A DNA stretch of 64,000 nt from Gamarada debralockiae (taxonomy: Eukaryota > Ascomycota > Leotiomycetes > Helotiales > Hyphodiscaceae): positions 1 to 64,000 of the forward strand of contig NXFV01001674.1 in NCBI GenBank assembly GCA_002803225.1. The letters are read 5' to 3'. How positions within the stretch are numbered: position 1 is the first letter of the stretch; each line of letters opens with the position of its first letter. The notes beneath the pieces were generated by a model. That model did not search any database. It was not told where the DNA came from and saw only the letters and a list, made by a program, of their open reading frames with translations. This document shows, in pieces, positions 38,203 to 61,258 of the stretch. The position numbers and the translations under genes were made by a program.

Positions 38203-41200
38203 TTATGCAAAATTCATTGTCCCGCATTTTGTACATACCAGCTTCTGGCCTTTTCCAACGACCTTCCGTGCCCTGAAATCCTTCCCTCCGCATTTTCTAC
38301 ATGATAAGGCTTCCCCCTCACTCTCATCATCCTCCAAGCTGCCGTCGCTACTCAGCTTACTGACATAGCTGGCTCCCTTTTCTAATGGAGGTCTGAGATC
38401 TCCGCCGAGCTTGCTGGGATCGCTTGGGGGATAGGTCACTTGACTCTTCCATTGAGACATATTCCAAAACTGATAACTCTTGCCTGATGGATCGAGCCTC
38501 AGTCCACCGTCATCGCTCGCGCTATGAATACTGAACCCTGGAGTCGGCGGCTGACTGATGTTGTTGCTCGGTGCCTTGTATATGCTTGCTGGTGGACTGG
38601 TCGTAGAGGCGCTGGATGTCGCAACGGTCAGGGGCGTCCCAGCGTATGGCTGTTGCCGAGCAGTGCTTGCAAGATTATTCTGGGAATTGGCGTTCGAGAG
38701 ATTTGGCAGGGAACCCCTATTGAACTTGCCAGGAGATATGCTGCGATCGCTACGAACCCCTCGAGCTCCATTTCGCATGCTAGTTTCGAGGCCGGTGTTG
38801 CTAGTGACCTGATTGCGCCATGAAAGAATGTGATCGGAATGCATAGAAGGTCCTGTGCGAGAGGTTTGCGATACCGAGTTGCGCCTCGAGTGGGAACCAT
38901 CACTGTGCCTCGTCATGATGCTGTTACTCCTTCCCAGCATTTTCTTTGAAAACAGGGATCCTGTCTCCCAATTATCGTGGCGACGCTTTTGAAAGGCGCA
39001 GTCTTGTCGAAAGACCTTTATGCCACCCAGGTAATCAGCAGTAATAACGATGTTTCCGTCCTTGTGATTACATCTCGCGAGGTATGCAGGAGATTCTTCG
39101 GGCTTCTTGACATGAGTTTCGCTGGTGGGATCTGAAAGGCGCTTATCCGAACCAATCACTGTATGTGGCATCGAAGAGGCATTCGATTCTTCCCTACTCA
39201 GTAGAGTCACAGGAGGTGGATTGCAAAGGTCATAGATAGGATCCCCTGAGGCACTAAGCAGTTGCCGTGATTTCGCAGGTGCCATCACCGCAGCAGTCAC
39301 CATATCCGAATGTGCTTCGAAAAACTCCACCGGCCGTTTGTCCTTGTTCTCCGCATCAATGGTCTCGGTGGACCAGATGTATGCTTTTCGGTCTTCGCTG
39401 CCGCAGATAATGTAAAGAGCATCATCACTGAAGCTTGCATTGATCTGACTGGAAGTATTTTCATGCCCTCTGAACTTCATCTCTAGACTCTTATCCCGCA
39501 GGTTATACATTCGAATTCTGGAGTCATTACTGGTAATGAGGACTTTCATCTCGCCGTTTGGATCATCAGGCGGGAATGTCATCGTCCGAATACCTGTGAT
39601 CTTGCTGCCTTTTGCGTTCTTTCCTCGAGAGGATCTTACGTGGATTTGTGTGTGATACTTCAAGCCCTCTGTCTCGTAGAACAAACATAATCCACTCAGA
39701 ACACCAGCCATGGCAGTTTTACCATCAGGGGTAAACGCTACAGCGGTGATCAGATCCGGTAACTGATTCCAGAAAGCTACGCTCTTGTCTGGAATGCTCC
39801 ATAATCGTAGGACCGAGTCCAAAGATCCCGCGAGGAAGAAACGATCATCTTTCGGATGAAAAGCAATCGAGGTGACAAAATCCTTGTGCTTGAAGGTGCA
39901 AAGACACTCTTCTCTGCTGATATGCCATAACCGTACCGATTTGTCCATAGACGAAGACAGTAAGAAGTTGTTTTTGCTCCAACTCAGGTCCAGGATATCT
40001 CCAGTATGACCTTCGAATTCGCGAACTGGCTTAGACCTGAAGACAGGTGCGCTCAACCTTTCCGAAGTATTCGAGTCCTCTTCCCGCTCATGAGCTTGCC
40101 TTTCCTCAGGGGTCGATATCACCGCCCATACCCGAACAACTTGATCTCTACCAGCCGCAGCAAAGTATTTTCCATCTTTGCTGAACTCAGTTGCCCAGAC
40201 CGCCCCACCAGTCTTCGGCATCTTCGATAGCTTATGCCCATTTTGTGGATTCACCTCTGATGTTGTCAGCCCAGGAACCTTCTCATTGCTCGCTTCATGT
40301 TTCGTGCCAGTCAATTCTTGAGCTAAGAACATGCGATTGAACTCTCTCTCCTTCTTGTTATGTGCCCGAACCTTGATGTACCTCGGCGGCTCTTTGTGCT
40401 GCGGTATGTATCCATTCGCGCCTATCGAGGAAGAGAAGACATGTGCGTTCATGCCTTCTGTTCGCGCGTCGCCCAGTTCCGATTCATCGTCGTCGGCATC
40501 GACGGACGGGTCCTTCTTCTTTCCACCGATGATACTGAAGCGACTTAGGAATGAGACTCCCTTTCTGTAGGCACACCATTAGCTATTGCACGAGACGTTA
40601 AATGATTTGTAGGTGTTGGCGTAAGCAAGCCACATTCTCTCAAGCGCTCAGTAAGCAGGCCCGCAAATCATGTCCAGCTCTTCGGATTCTGAGACACTTA
40701 CTTCTTCTCTTTGGTCGGATTAGTGTCGCTGCGAGCAATCTCAGGTGTCAATTGCCTCCCAGGTGATCCCAAGACGGGGCTGACTGGTCCTCCTAGATCA
40801 GGATTCGGACTATCCGGGACCCCTGCGTTTCGTAGCTTCTGAGGGATTGTGTTCTCGGTATTCGTTCGTTTGAGGATATGCTATGTCAAGATATTAGCAA
40901 ACGATCTGTAGCCTATTGAGGAGGTCACGTAAAGGCTGCAATAGGTTGTGTGCACGAGAGAAGACATACATGGGAGAGAGGATCGATAGCTGTTGAAGGT
41001 CGCGCTGGAGGTGATGATGGAGTTTCTCCATTGGTGTCTTTGCTGTTGGAGCTGTTTCGCATCAATTTGATTGGTGACTTCTTGCCATTCGATTGAGTGT
41101 TGCCTGCAATAAGAAACGTCTTTAGTATGAGCGCAACCACCAGAAGCAAGAGCCGTATCATCGGGTCATCTCTGAACCCATAGAAGGCTGTGTAGAGGAA

Positions 41201-57353: not shown

Positions 57354-60300
57354 ATGGTATGCACAGAAAATATTCCTCGTCAGATATCCATTAAATTTAG
57401 ACTAACATACGTTCAAATGCTAGGAATTGCCAGTTGAGTGGCAATGCTGGTGTTGTGAGAACCAAGTCGAGCTCCACGACTTACGGCAATGTTCGACCTG
57501 TGGTCCAAGAGGAAGCAATGATCGTCAACTCTATTGCATCAGCCTCTGTTCCACCTGCCGTCTTAAGAACTGTTCGGAGCCTGGCCATTTGACTTGTTGG
57601 GAGGAGCACTTACCCCAGAAAGAAAAGATGAAGAAGTCTCACACTCCAATTGATCCGCTGCCCTCGTTATTTGTGGATGCGATAACTTATTCCGAGTCTG
57701 ATCCCGCTCGTCAGCAAAGGTTGCATGAGCAAGATCGTGTCGCTCAATGGTTCACGATAAAAGTCGACAATTCGACAACCAGTCCTCCACGACTCTGTGT
57801 GACGGATCGATTTCGCCAGCTATGTGATCCAGGAGTATCGGGTTCAAAGTGGAGCAAGAGACAGTACCCTGGGTTTGTGTCATTTATCGGTAACACAGGG
57901 ATTGGAAAGTCCACTCTCCTACGAGCAATGATATTGATGGGACAAGTCGATCCATCTGGCGTAGCTTACGAGCTGGATGAGACGGAGGGAAAATGGAAGA
58001 CAAAGACCAACGGCCTTCGAACTCTCTTGGCTCAGAAAGTTCAGAGTCCGGTGTCAAGATCCGCTTGCCTTGAGCACATGACCGATCCGACGAGCTTTGG
58101 GGTCCATCTTTACAGAGACGTAGCAACTTCGACAGCAAGCGAAGATCAAATGGATGAACCCAAGAACTTTGAAGACACACCAATCCTATTCGCAGATTGC
58201 GAGGGTTTTCGAGCAGGCCATGCGACTACCATCACAGAGCGCTTTGATCGAAGTTCTAAAGTATCTCCGTTACCAAACTTGCTTTCCGAGTCTCCAATCA
58301 CTGCTGCAAGCTATGGAAAACATGGGAAAGAAGGAGTAGACCTGTTCTACGCACGGTTTCTGTATACCATCAGTGACGTTGTGGTATTTGTGGTGAACAG
58401 CGATACTCAGCTCAATCCTGCCATGCAAAGGTTAGTGGAGTGGGCTGCATCAGCTGTTCACAGGTCTGTCAATCATTTGGCTCATAAAACCCTTATTGTT
58501 GTCCGAAATATGGGTGTCCTTCACAATACCGAGCTCTACGACGCAAATACTCTAAGATCTAAACTCTTTCTCACCCTCAGGCCACTGTGGGAGGGATCTC
58601 CTATCCTTGAGAACTTTCGGAAAACCTTTAACGACAAACAATATGCCAATAGCCACATGATTCACGACAATGCTGATTTGATGGACAAATTTTTCTCTGA
58701 TATCCGGTTCTGCTACATACCCGATGCTTCAAAAGCAACCGTCCTATCAGATCAGATCTTCAAACAGTATCAAGCACTCAGGTACCAAATTGTCGAGGCG
58801 TCTCAGGAGAGTCAGAAACGCAGAGCAAAGGCTTGGATGCAATACAATGTGCCTACCTTGTCCCACATTCTCAATCGGGCTTTCGAGCATTTCAGAACCT
58901 CAGACCAGCCATTTGATTTTTACAAAGCCGCACGAAACGACAACCCAAATCCTGCAGCGGTATCGGACCACATCGCGAACTTCATCAGGCATCTATATCT
59001 AGCTCCGAGCTTCCCTCCTCGAATCATCCCCCAGGTAATTTCTATTTGCCTTGTGAGCTGGGCACTTCGGACTTTTAGTTCCGGTAAGTTCCTTTGCTTG
59101 CTGGTAGAAAACTCTACGCTGATATATAAATAGTTCAAGAGCCTCATGAAATGTTCAGTCGAAAGCTAGAGAATTGGTGCAGGGAAGGTATTGAAAAGTT
59201 TTCGGAAAGAGACCAAAAATGCGGGCAGATATTGAAGAGGGGAGGAGTATGCGTGAATCGACGAGCATCACATGTAGAACACTGCGACGAGAAAGGGAAC
59301 AGGTCGCCTGGGTCCTTCGACGAAGCATTGAAACTCCCCTCAAACACCTTGAACGAAATCAACAGTCTCTTTGTAAAGCAGTATGCGATGCTTTGCACAA
59401 GCACAGGACGGACGCACATGTTGCCCAGTGCTGAAGAATCACGTCACTTCAGGGAGAAAACTCTTCAGCAGTTCAAGACAGACTGGAGAATTATACAAAG
59501 CAACAAAACTTGCTTGGCATGTCTGCAAGCTGTGCCAGACCACGTACTTGAGTGTGGTCATAGCTTCTGTCCTCGTTGCGTACAGGAATTTGGGAGACCA
59601 TGCAACTACTTTGAAAGTAGCTGGGTGATGGATCACTGTGTTCTTTGTCAGATTGCTTGGCAAGATAGTAGACATCTGTTCCATTTCCTTCCAAAATGTG
59701 GGGGAGTGAGAGCACTGGCATTGGATGGTGGAGGGATCCGAGGGATTGTGGAGCTTGCGCTGCTTGAAAAACTCGACGGGACGATGGGACTTGAGATCCC
59801 TCTGCGAGATCATTTCGATATGATAGTTGGAACCAGCACAGGTAAGTCATCCTACTGTCTTTCTACCTTCCCCATGCAACCCAGAACTTCTGAATCTTAA
59901 TCTCTGCCACCAGCTGACCGTTCTCAAAATTGATAGGGGGTATTATTGCGCTTGGTCTTGCCACGAAAGACTTTTCCATCCGTCGCTTGAAAGCAGAATT
60001 CATGGCACTCGCTACAAAAACATTCGAAAAACGAAGGGAGGGCACACTCGTGACGATGCTAGACCCTTTCAAACTCACTTCCACCTTCTTTCTCGTGTTG
60101 CGTATTTGGGACAGCGTATACCGCACGTCGCCGCTGAGAGACGGCTTGAAAAGACTTTTTGGGCCCGACCAGAATCTGTTTTCGGCAGCCAGAAGGCCAG
60201 TCAGAGTGGCTGTTACCTCTGTGAAGGATAATGGAGCGGACAAATGCCTCATCGCCAACTACAACAGACCCAAATTCGGCACTGATCATGATTTCGAACG

Positions 60301-61258
60301 CGAGGATGACAGCAAGAAGGACATGAAGATTTGGGAAGCTGCTCTCTCAACCGCTGCTGCGCCTTTTTATTTTCGGAAATTCTGGAAGCCAGAAACGAAG
60401 AAGAATTATACCGACGGCGCCCTTCATGCCAACTTCCCCGTCCCCTACGCCTTGGAAGAGATAACTCGAATTTGGAATGGATCAGATGAAGAAAAGGTTC
60501 CTCTGGATATACTTCTTAGTGTGGGCACAGGAATACAGACAAAGGAAATCGCAATTCCGATGCCTCTCAAGATCGGCGGCTTCCAGGAAGTCTGTACCAG
60601 CTTCCACAACAGTCTCAACAGCCAAAAAAGTTGGGTAGAGTTTGAACGAGTCCGATTAAATGAAAGCGATATCCAAGGGCGGGTACACAGACTCAACGCT
60701 CCGATCGAGGGAAGCTATGTGGCTTTAGATCATTACAAGCGCATGAAGGACATTGATGCTTCAATCACTACTCTGCTTAAAGATCCCATCTTCACTTCAC
60801 ACCTGCGTAAGATTGCAGACATATTGATTGCAAATCTGTTTTTCTTTGAGCCGGATGTCAATGTTCGAGAGGTCATCTCACGGAGCCAACCAGAGCAACT
60901 CTCAGGGACTATTCGATGCCGCTTGGCGAGAGATAGCTATAATCTGAAAAATCTCATTGATATCATCGATAGCTTCTGGTACAAGGAATCTAGAAACGTC
61001 GACAAATTCCTAGACGAGAAGAGTCAGTGGACGGCAGTGCCACTGAGCGTGAAAGAACGCAATGGGGTCAAGACGCAAGGCCGTTGGCTCCGGGTAGAGT
61101 GTAAAATTACCCCAATGGAGCCTCGCGAATCAATGCAAATCCTCGCCATCACTCTTAGACGAACATCATCTGAATTCAGGTCAGGTTTTCCGGCTAGTCC
61201 AATCCCAATCAGCGGCTTTCCGATCAGTTTCCATTGTCTGAAGAAGAAGTCTAAGTAG
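57354..61258 (+). CDS. GTPase-RING-patatin phospholipase fusion protein
   Basis: Exons 57354-57356 (ATG only), 57424-59083, 59134-59841 and 59937-61258 join in phase to 1230 aa. Residues 9-59 hold ten Cys in CxxC-like arrangement, a likely zinc-binding module. A GBP/dynamin-like G domain follows: P-loop GNTGIGKST (157-165), DCEG as G3 (259-262), and TLIVVRNMG near 361, where GBPs have an Arg-Asp G4. CLACLQAVPDHVLECGHSFC and DHCVLCQIAW (about 681-727) form a RING finger, expected to recruit an E2. A patatin domain ends the protein: DGGGIRG oxyanion loop (752-758), GTSTG with nucleophile Ser789, and DGA with catalytic Asp950. So it combines nucleotide switch, possible ubiquitin ligase and lipid acyl hydrolase. 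Patatin effectors in fungal and bacterial immune-type proteins suggest a defence or incompatibility role, which is inference. The least certain splice is 59083/59134. Confidence 0.9.

Follow-up and report, generated by a model that had tools for sequence, protein, structure and literature searches.

A fungal protein family that joins a predicted GBP/atlastin-fold NTPase domain to a RING finger and a patatin phospholipase: a candidate nucleotide-switched effector

What might a fungus do with a single protein that carries a predicted large-GTPase fold, a RING finger and a patatin phospholipase? The question is raised by a gene of Gamarada debralockiae (Ascomycota, Helotiales) at positions 57354–61258 of the window, by which we mean the whole stretch of 64,000 nucleotides analysed (contig NXFV01001674.1, assembly GCA_002803225.1). 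The domains fit a switch and an effector, namely a nucleotide-driven assembly domain beside a membrane phospholipase. Our reading is a nucleotide-switched intracellular phospholipase with an immune or cell-death role, for and against which we hold the chances to be even. The Gamarada gene has many relatives, and what is new is the large family to which it belongs. Its parts are as follows.

57354–57356, plus strand: exon 1, the start codon only (from splicing and the start of a relative)
57424–59083, plus strand: exon 2, residues 2–554 and the first base of codon 555; N-terminal zinc module, NTPase (nucleoside triphosphatase) domain and helical bundle
57445–57642, plus strand: Cys/His-rich, B-box-like zinc module, about residues 9–74 (from conservation and a profile match to Midline-1)
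57730–58911, plus strand: predicted GBP/atlastin-fold NTPase domain, about residues 104–497 (from an AlphaFold2 (AF2) model, Foldseek, VIA-align and conservation)
59134–59841, plus strand: exon 3, residues 555–790; helices, C-C-H-H cluster, RING and start of the patatin
59220–59282, plus strand: putative zinc site C584-C594-H601-H604 (all four in 91 of 91 homologues)
59511–59648, plus strand: C3HC4 RING finger, residues 681–726 (from ligand conservation and profile matches)
59715–60454, plus strand: patatin phospholipase, residues 749–963, split by the intron 59842–59936, with GTSTG Ser789 and DGA Asp950
59937–61258, plus strand: exon 4, residues 791–1230 and the stop; remaining patatin and a conserved C-terminal domain (GTIRCRL, ISGFP)

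Removal of the three introns (67, 50 and 95 nt, each bounded by GT-AG and containing a CTRAY-like branch site) leaves a four-exon plus-strand frame of 3693 nt, which encodes 1230 aa with a single terminal stop and no internal stops; codons 555 and 791 are both split by introns. The motifs GNTGIGKST, DCEG, RNMG, GTSTG and DGA begin at residues 157, 259, 362, 787 and 950, respectively. A preliminary description of this DNA had given the same coordinates, length, Ser789 and Asp950, all of which were exact on re-splicing. The closest named relative, P0001 of Cenococcum geophilum, is 59% identical over 100% of the length, and this identity together with at least 652 homologous proteins at E ≤ 1e-3 (a lower bound, 7991 candidates having been scored) excludes chance. 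A first exon made of ATG alone is plausible, since P0001 starts with MEIP where the Gamarada protein starts with MELP. Fourteen relatives were compared at the exon junctions. The alignment stops exactly at residue 791, the site of the third intron, in 8 of the 14; P0017 and P0018 start exactly at 555, and P0121 and P0122 end exactly at 554. We take the metagenome-derived relatives to be unspliced open reading frames (ORFs). Junction 554/555 is spanned continuously by P0041 with two extra residues, and junction 790/791 by P0017 and P0018 without a gap; P0020 and P0012 weigh less at 554/555 because they have longer extra stretches there and may read through the intron. Two separate genes were rejected, since relatives are continuous across the junctions; the break at 59084–59133 that the preliminary description had named in advance as evidence against a single polypeptide is thereby contradicted.

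At the effector end, PF01734 matches with E 2e-26 and 93.8 bits against a cut-off of 27.7, and is the sole Pfam family above cut-off. The catalytic elements are GxSxG (787–791), DG[AG] (950–952) and a DGGG oxyanion loop (752–755). Residue conservation, here and below, refers to the 91 homologues of at least 1000 aa out of 120 listed. Ser789 is found in 89 of the 91, with Gly in P0101 and P0108, and Asp950 in 90 (one gap), so that the intact patatin reported at the outset is present and conserved. By family, catalytic dyad and oxyanion loop the protein is a patatin-like phospholipase, for which lipase activity is predicted. With a family profile built from exon 2 of the window and 73 relatives (74 sequences in all), the patatin part matches CapV of the cyclic-oligonucleotide-based antiphage signalling system (CBASS) at 1.8e-33, iPLA2beta at 1.8e-30 and patatin-17 at 6e-18; when structures alone are compared, CapV has no lead over plant patatin-17 and iPLA2beta. 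Three relatives match CBASS phospholipase models of the defence and NCBI libraries, under the NCBI curated cut-off of 200 bits. The matches kept from prokaryote and viral collections (80 + 80) all start at residue 608 or later of P0058, around the patatin; the search patterns were derived from patatin motifs, and this result speaks for the patatin region and not for the G domain. PF28431 is precomputed for many relatives, and its listing for P0017 and P0018, not for P0012 and P0020, suggests that it covers the C-terminal domain.

The domain in exon 2 is predicted to adopt a GBP/atlastin-type large-GTPase fold. Its AF2 model has a pLDDT (predicted local distance difference test) of 85.2. RNF112 shares the G fold in Foldseek, and the fold is equally close to atlastin and Sey1 in VIA-align, which gives no verdict either way on families outside its list. 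The elements are a P-loop (157–165), switch I Thr224, DCEG (259–262) and a degenerate G4 at Asn363. Asp259 and Glu261 are invariant (91 of 91), Thr224 occurs in 88 of 91, and P-loop Lys163 in all 87 homologues covering the position. Arg never occurs at what we take to be the place of GBP1 Arg48 (Gly 56, Ser 16, Cys 5, Asn 5, others 5, gap 4). PF02263 gives no match for exon 2 at E ≤ 10 in a scan where the Sey1 exon of the genome reaches 5.7e-9, and the Sey1 place alone is listed when the own genome is scanned; no PF05879 match is listed for the Gamarada protein. Neither GBP nor atlastin is among the best 60 of 93 PDB matches of the 74-sequence profile. A GBP by sequence was rejected, with no PF02263 match and the G4 Asp not kept. 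Identity as the genome's Sey1, which sits on C42, was rejected too, as was an ABC, AAA or ECF-type ATPase, for which matches are weak and around the P-loop and structure comparison points elsewhere. Of the GBP/dynamin-like GTPase first described, the nucleotide-binding GBP/atlastin-type fold stands in the predicted structure, and the domain does not model as something unrelated to nucleotide-binding folds; it is not a GBP by sequence, and TLIVVRNMG, which had been given among the motifs of the GTPase, is not a canonical guanine motif. In the excerpts that represent the papers cited here, human GBP1 D184N is used as a GTPase-deficient (or diminished), dominant-negative mutant (PMC2714978, PMC5571548), and SMG9 binds ATP via rearranged G4 and G5 motifs (PMC7334022). 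Because the G4 Asp is never kept, GBP1 D184N is impaired and SMG9 binds ATP, "NTPase switch" is a safer term than "GTPase".

The RING finger is present between the G domain and the patatin as described earlier, and its ligands C681, C684, C695, H697, C700, C703, C723 and C726 are conserved. Its profile matches are RNF141, TRIM21 and TRIM5 chains (E 2e-4 to 9e-4, with RNF141 and TRIM21 at 2e-4); no Pfam RING model is listed for the Gamarada protein, and those of relatives are under cut-off. Between the RING and the G domain lies a C-x9-C-x6-H-x2-H cluster that is invariant and was matched to no named family. In the N-terminal module the Cys pairs, CW and His74 are kept wherever the region aligns, many rows being gapped there, and the profile match is Midline-1 (E 0.008). 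A ten-Cys module had been proposed at this place; the Cys-rich region is there, with an appearance better described as B-box-like.

The named organisms among the 120 listed homologues are Pezizomycotina as far as recognised, and nine that were looked up belong to nine classes. Two listed members per species occur in several, for instance Fonsecaea erecta, Cladophialophora yegresii and Coniosporium apollinis. With exon 2 alone as the query, most listed matches are short ORFs without patatin, and no Pfam domain besides patatin is found in the 120 listed. The same domain order occurs at C993, C437 and C972 in the Gamarada genome, all nearer the divergent clade (tblastn of seven query proteins against 20 genome stretches). 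In the C972 paralogue (L199:1921–6075) the N-terminal piece matches both strands close together, which suggests an inverted duplication or a rearranged copy. As the preliminary description had held, no characterised fungal protein with this domain order was found: the architecture is not described in the open-licence literature that was searched, and papers naming a "lysophospholipase-like protein" contain no identifiable family member.

In the nucleotide-switched phospholipase that we propose, the GBP/atlastin-fold domain would bind nucleotide and, on a trigger, dimerise or oligomerise. The assembly would release or cluster the C-terminal patatin domain, which would hydrolyse phospholipids of its own or an invader's membrane, leading to regulated cell death or defence. 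The job would be like that of the fungal patatin NOD-like receptor (NLR) PLP-1, with a GBP-fold switch replacing NB-ARC. Activation by assembly is proposed by analogy, since the structure titles of the nearest patatins, CapV and CapE, mention filaments, and GBPs and atlastins work assembled, as dimers or coats; patatin activation and the immune or cell-death role are argued in the same manner.

The patatin NLRs (PLP-1 of Neurospora; patatin-NB-ARC-TPR) are likewise intracellular and combine a nucleotide-binding domain with a patatin phospholipase. Their switch is NB-ARC and their patatin N-terminal, whereas the Gamarada protein has a predicted GBP/atlastin fold, a C-terminal patatin, and additional RING and B-box-like modules. 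Membership by sequence in the fungal NLRs, or signal transduction ATPases with numerous domains (STAND), was rejected: there is no NB-ARC, NACHT is below threshold (12.1 bits against 26.7), and no TPR, WD40, ankyrin or HEAT repeat family is listed by Pfam at E ≤ 1. An effector domain known from fungal NLRs, the patatin, is present. Patatin is listed as an NLR effector (PMC4986451), PLP-1 cell death requires patatin activity and the NB-ARC nucleotide motif (PMC12881547), and 95% of Sordariales patatin NLRs have NB-ARC (PMC12258605); a Podospora study has 5 of 9 patatin genes that are not NLRs upregulated, with stars in its table, in response to each of two bacteria (PMC4835503). The Gamarada genome has 43 NB-ARC matches, the locus itself not among them, and five lie 0.5–0.7 kb from same-strand patatin matches (C101, C354, C528, C864, C1005), probably as patatin NLR genes. 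With animal GBPs, atlastin, RNF112 (which also carries a RING) and fungal Sey1, the protein shares the predicted large-GTPase fold, P-loop, switch I Thr and DxEG, but it lacks a PF02263 or PF05879 match and the P-loop Arg at the GBP1 Arg48 place, has Asn or His for the G4 Asp, and is fused to a phospholipase. CapV is the closest solved patatin relative by sequence profile, with the Ser/Asp dyad and glycine-rich loop in common; CapV and CapE are, however, small, bacterial and cyclic-nucleotide-activated, whereas the Gamarada patatin is one part of a 1230-aa fungal protein. SMG9, a subunit of the SMG1-8-9 kinase complex of nonsense-mediated decay without RING or patatin, has the same G-fold class and is a precedent for ATP binding through rearranged base-binding motifs.

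The history of the gene also bears on its role. Sey1 matches (Hyphodiscus hymeniophilus 95%, Lachnellula cervina 90%, Hyaloscypha hepaticicola 90%) place the source fungus in Helotiales. The closest named homologues listed are from Cenococcum in the Dothideomycetes (59%), Glutinoglossum in the Geoglossomycetes (58%) and the Helotiales genus Oculimacula (Leotiomycetes, 52%); for Hyaloscypha variabilis and two members from Cadophora the identity is 36–39%. Hyphodiscus and Lachnellula are both absent from the 120 listed homologues, though an orthologue there should exceed 59%; this gap could be due to gene models that are missing or split, and unnamed rows are not assignable. Two closer orthologues exist as metagenome ORFs, at 81% and 78% identity. 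A quick tree (LG+G4, SH-aLRT only) was built from the window protein and 40 of the 120 listed proteins, chosen chiefly because they bear a name; its cross-class pairs are Cenococcum with Oculimacula, Trichoglossum with Elaphomyces, and Hyaloscypha with Coniochaeta (100 each). Fonsecaea with Cladophialophora, Immersiella with Cercophora, and Orbiliomycetes match taxonomy, and the Gamarada protein's group of four includes Oculimacula (Helotiales). Old duplications with loss, or transfer, would give such a discordant tree; both processes are frequent among non-self genes of fungi and rarer among housekeeping genes.

Several points weigh against a nucleotide-switched phospholipase of immunity or cell death. 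Position 363, the guanine-binding Asp in GBPs, is Asn in 84 of 91 homologues, His in 7 and Asp in none, its equivalence with GBP1 Asp184 being set by motif and strand and not by superposed coordinates; with the guanine motif degenerate, the switch may be structural only. Exon 2 finds by sequence only weak ABC-type P-loop matches in PDB, and no GBPs, and Pfam gives AAA/ABC P-loop matches below threshold. No sensor is evident, because a Pfam domain besides patatin is present in only 4 of the 120 listed homologues (P0034, P0045, P0061, P0111). The absence in near relatives rests on the best-120 list. The gene sits among ordinary metabolic genes: of the ORFs tested in the window, the nearest are an amino-acid permease and a pyridoxal-phosphate enzyme. 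Podospora NLR genes respond in incompatibility, not to bacteria (PMC4835503). The spread over nine classes of Pezizomycotina with strict conservation fits a lipid-homeostasis role equally.

Separately, P0111 (Icmadophila ericetorum), a divergent relative, has C-terminal ankyrin and SPRY added, a possible sensor module. P0034, P0045 and P0061 are annotated fusions with an ammonium transporter, PF00909, and are possibly gene-model fusions, possibly a shared neighbour. Elsewhere in the window a 791-aa ORF rich in WD40 repeats lies at 38206–40578 on the minus strand.

Alternatively, the protein could be a regulated phospholipase that serves membrane homeostasis or the remodelling of organelles, in which the atlastin-like domain targets or tethers membranes and the patatin trims lipids, like iPLA2beta or NTE-type enzymes. 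The equal nearness of the G fold to atlastin and Sey1, both endoplasmic-reticulum-fusion GTPases, the nearness of the patatin to iPLA2beta, catalytic residues that are almost never lost, and 116 of the 120 listed members without an evident sensor domain all agree with it. We consider it somewhat unlikely, however: a housekeeping gene would not usually occur in several copies, give a discordant tree and lack a listed homologue from the nearest named relatives, and the genome is already supplied with a Sey1 as well as with NTE-like and DUF3336 patatins. Broad conservation with a known housekeeping role had been named beforehand as an outcome against an immune protein; the breadth is real, and such a role was not found.

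A protein that is mainly a ubiquitin ligase or regulatory scaffold, with the RING (and B-box-like module) as output and the patatin as a lipid-sensing or localising module, is improbable. The C3HC4 ligands are conserved, the RING profile matches are RNF141/TRIM-like, and RNF112, a RING protein, has the same G fold; yet the final RING pair, CVLC, lacks the usual Pro, 30 of 40 divergent-clade members have His as the last ligand, and the patatin catalytic residues are kept. The wrong joining of an adjacent G-protein gene and RING-patatin gene, suggested by an intron at 59084–59133 between the two halves and by the short exon 2-only matches without patatin, is most improbable, as relatives run through each junction and annotated relatives are full length.

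Our study suggests that fungi may have, in this family, a kind of cell-death or defence protein that has gone unrecognised. Taken further, and tentatively, the family could be an additional class of receptors for non-self inside fungal cells, distinct from STAND/NLR proteins, in which a GBP-fold switch, perhaps with a nucleotide other than GTP, assembles, turns on a CBASS-like phospholipase and kills the hyphal compartment. Such a class would be widespread and multicopy in filamentous ascomycetes, and would have been overlooked because the G domain falls below Pfam thresholds. Nucleotide-switched effectors are treated as NLRs in the excerpts of the fungal-immunity literature that was searched. 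If the reading is true, there would be a second switch architecture, in which a GBP-type fold, known from animal cell-autonomous immunity, is coupled to a phospholipase of the bacterial anti-phage type, and the naturally changed G4 motif raises the question of which nucleotide such switches use.
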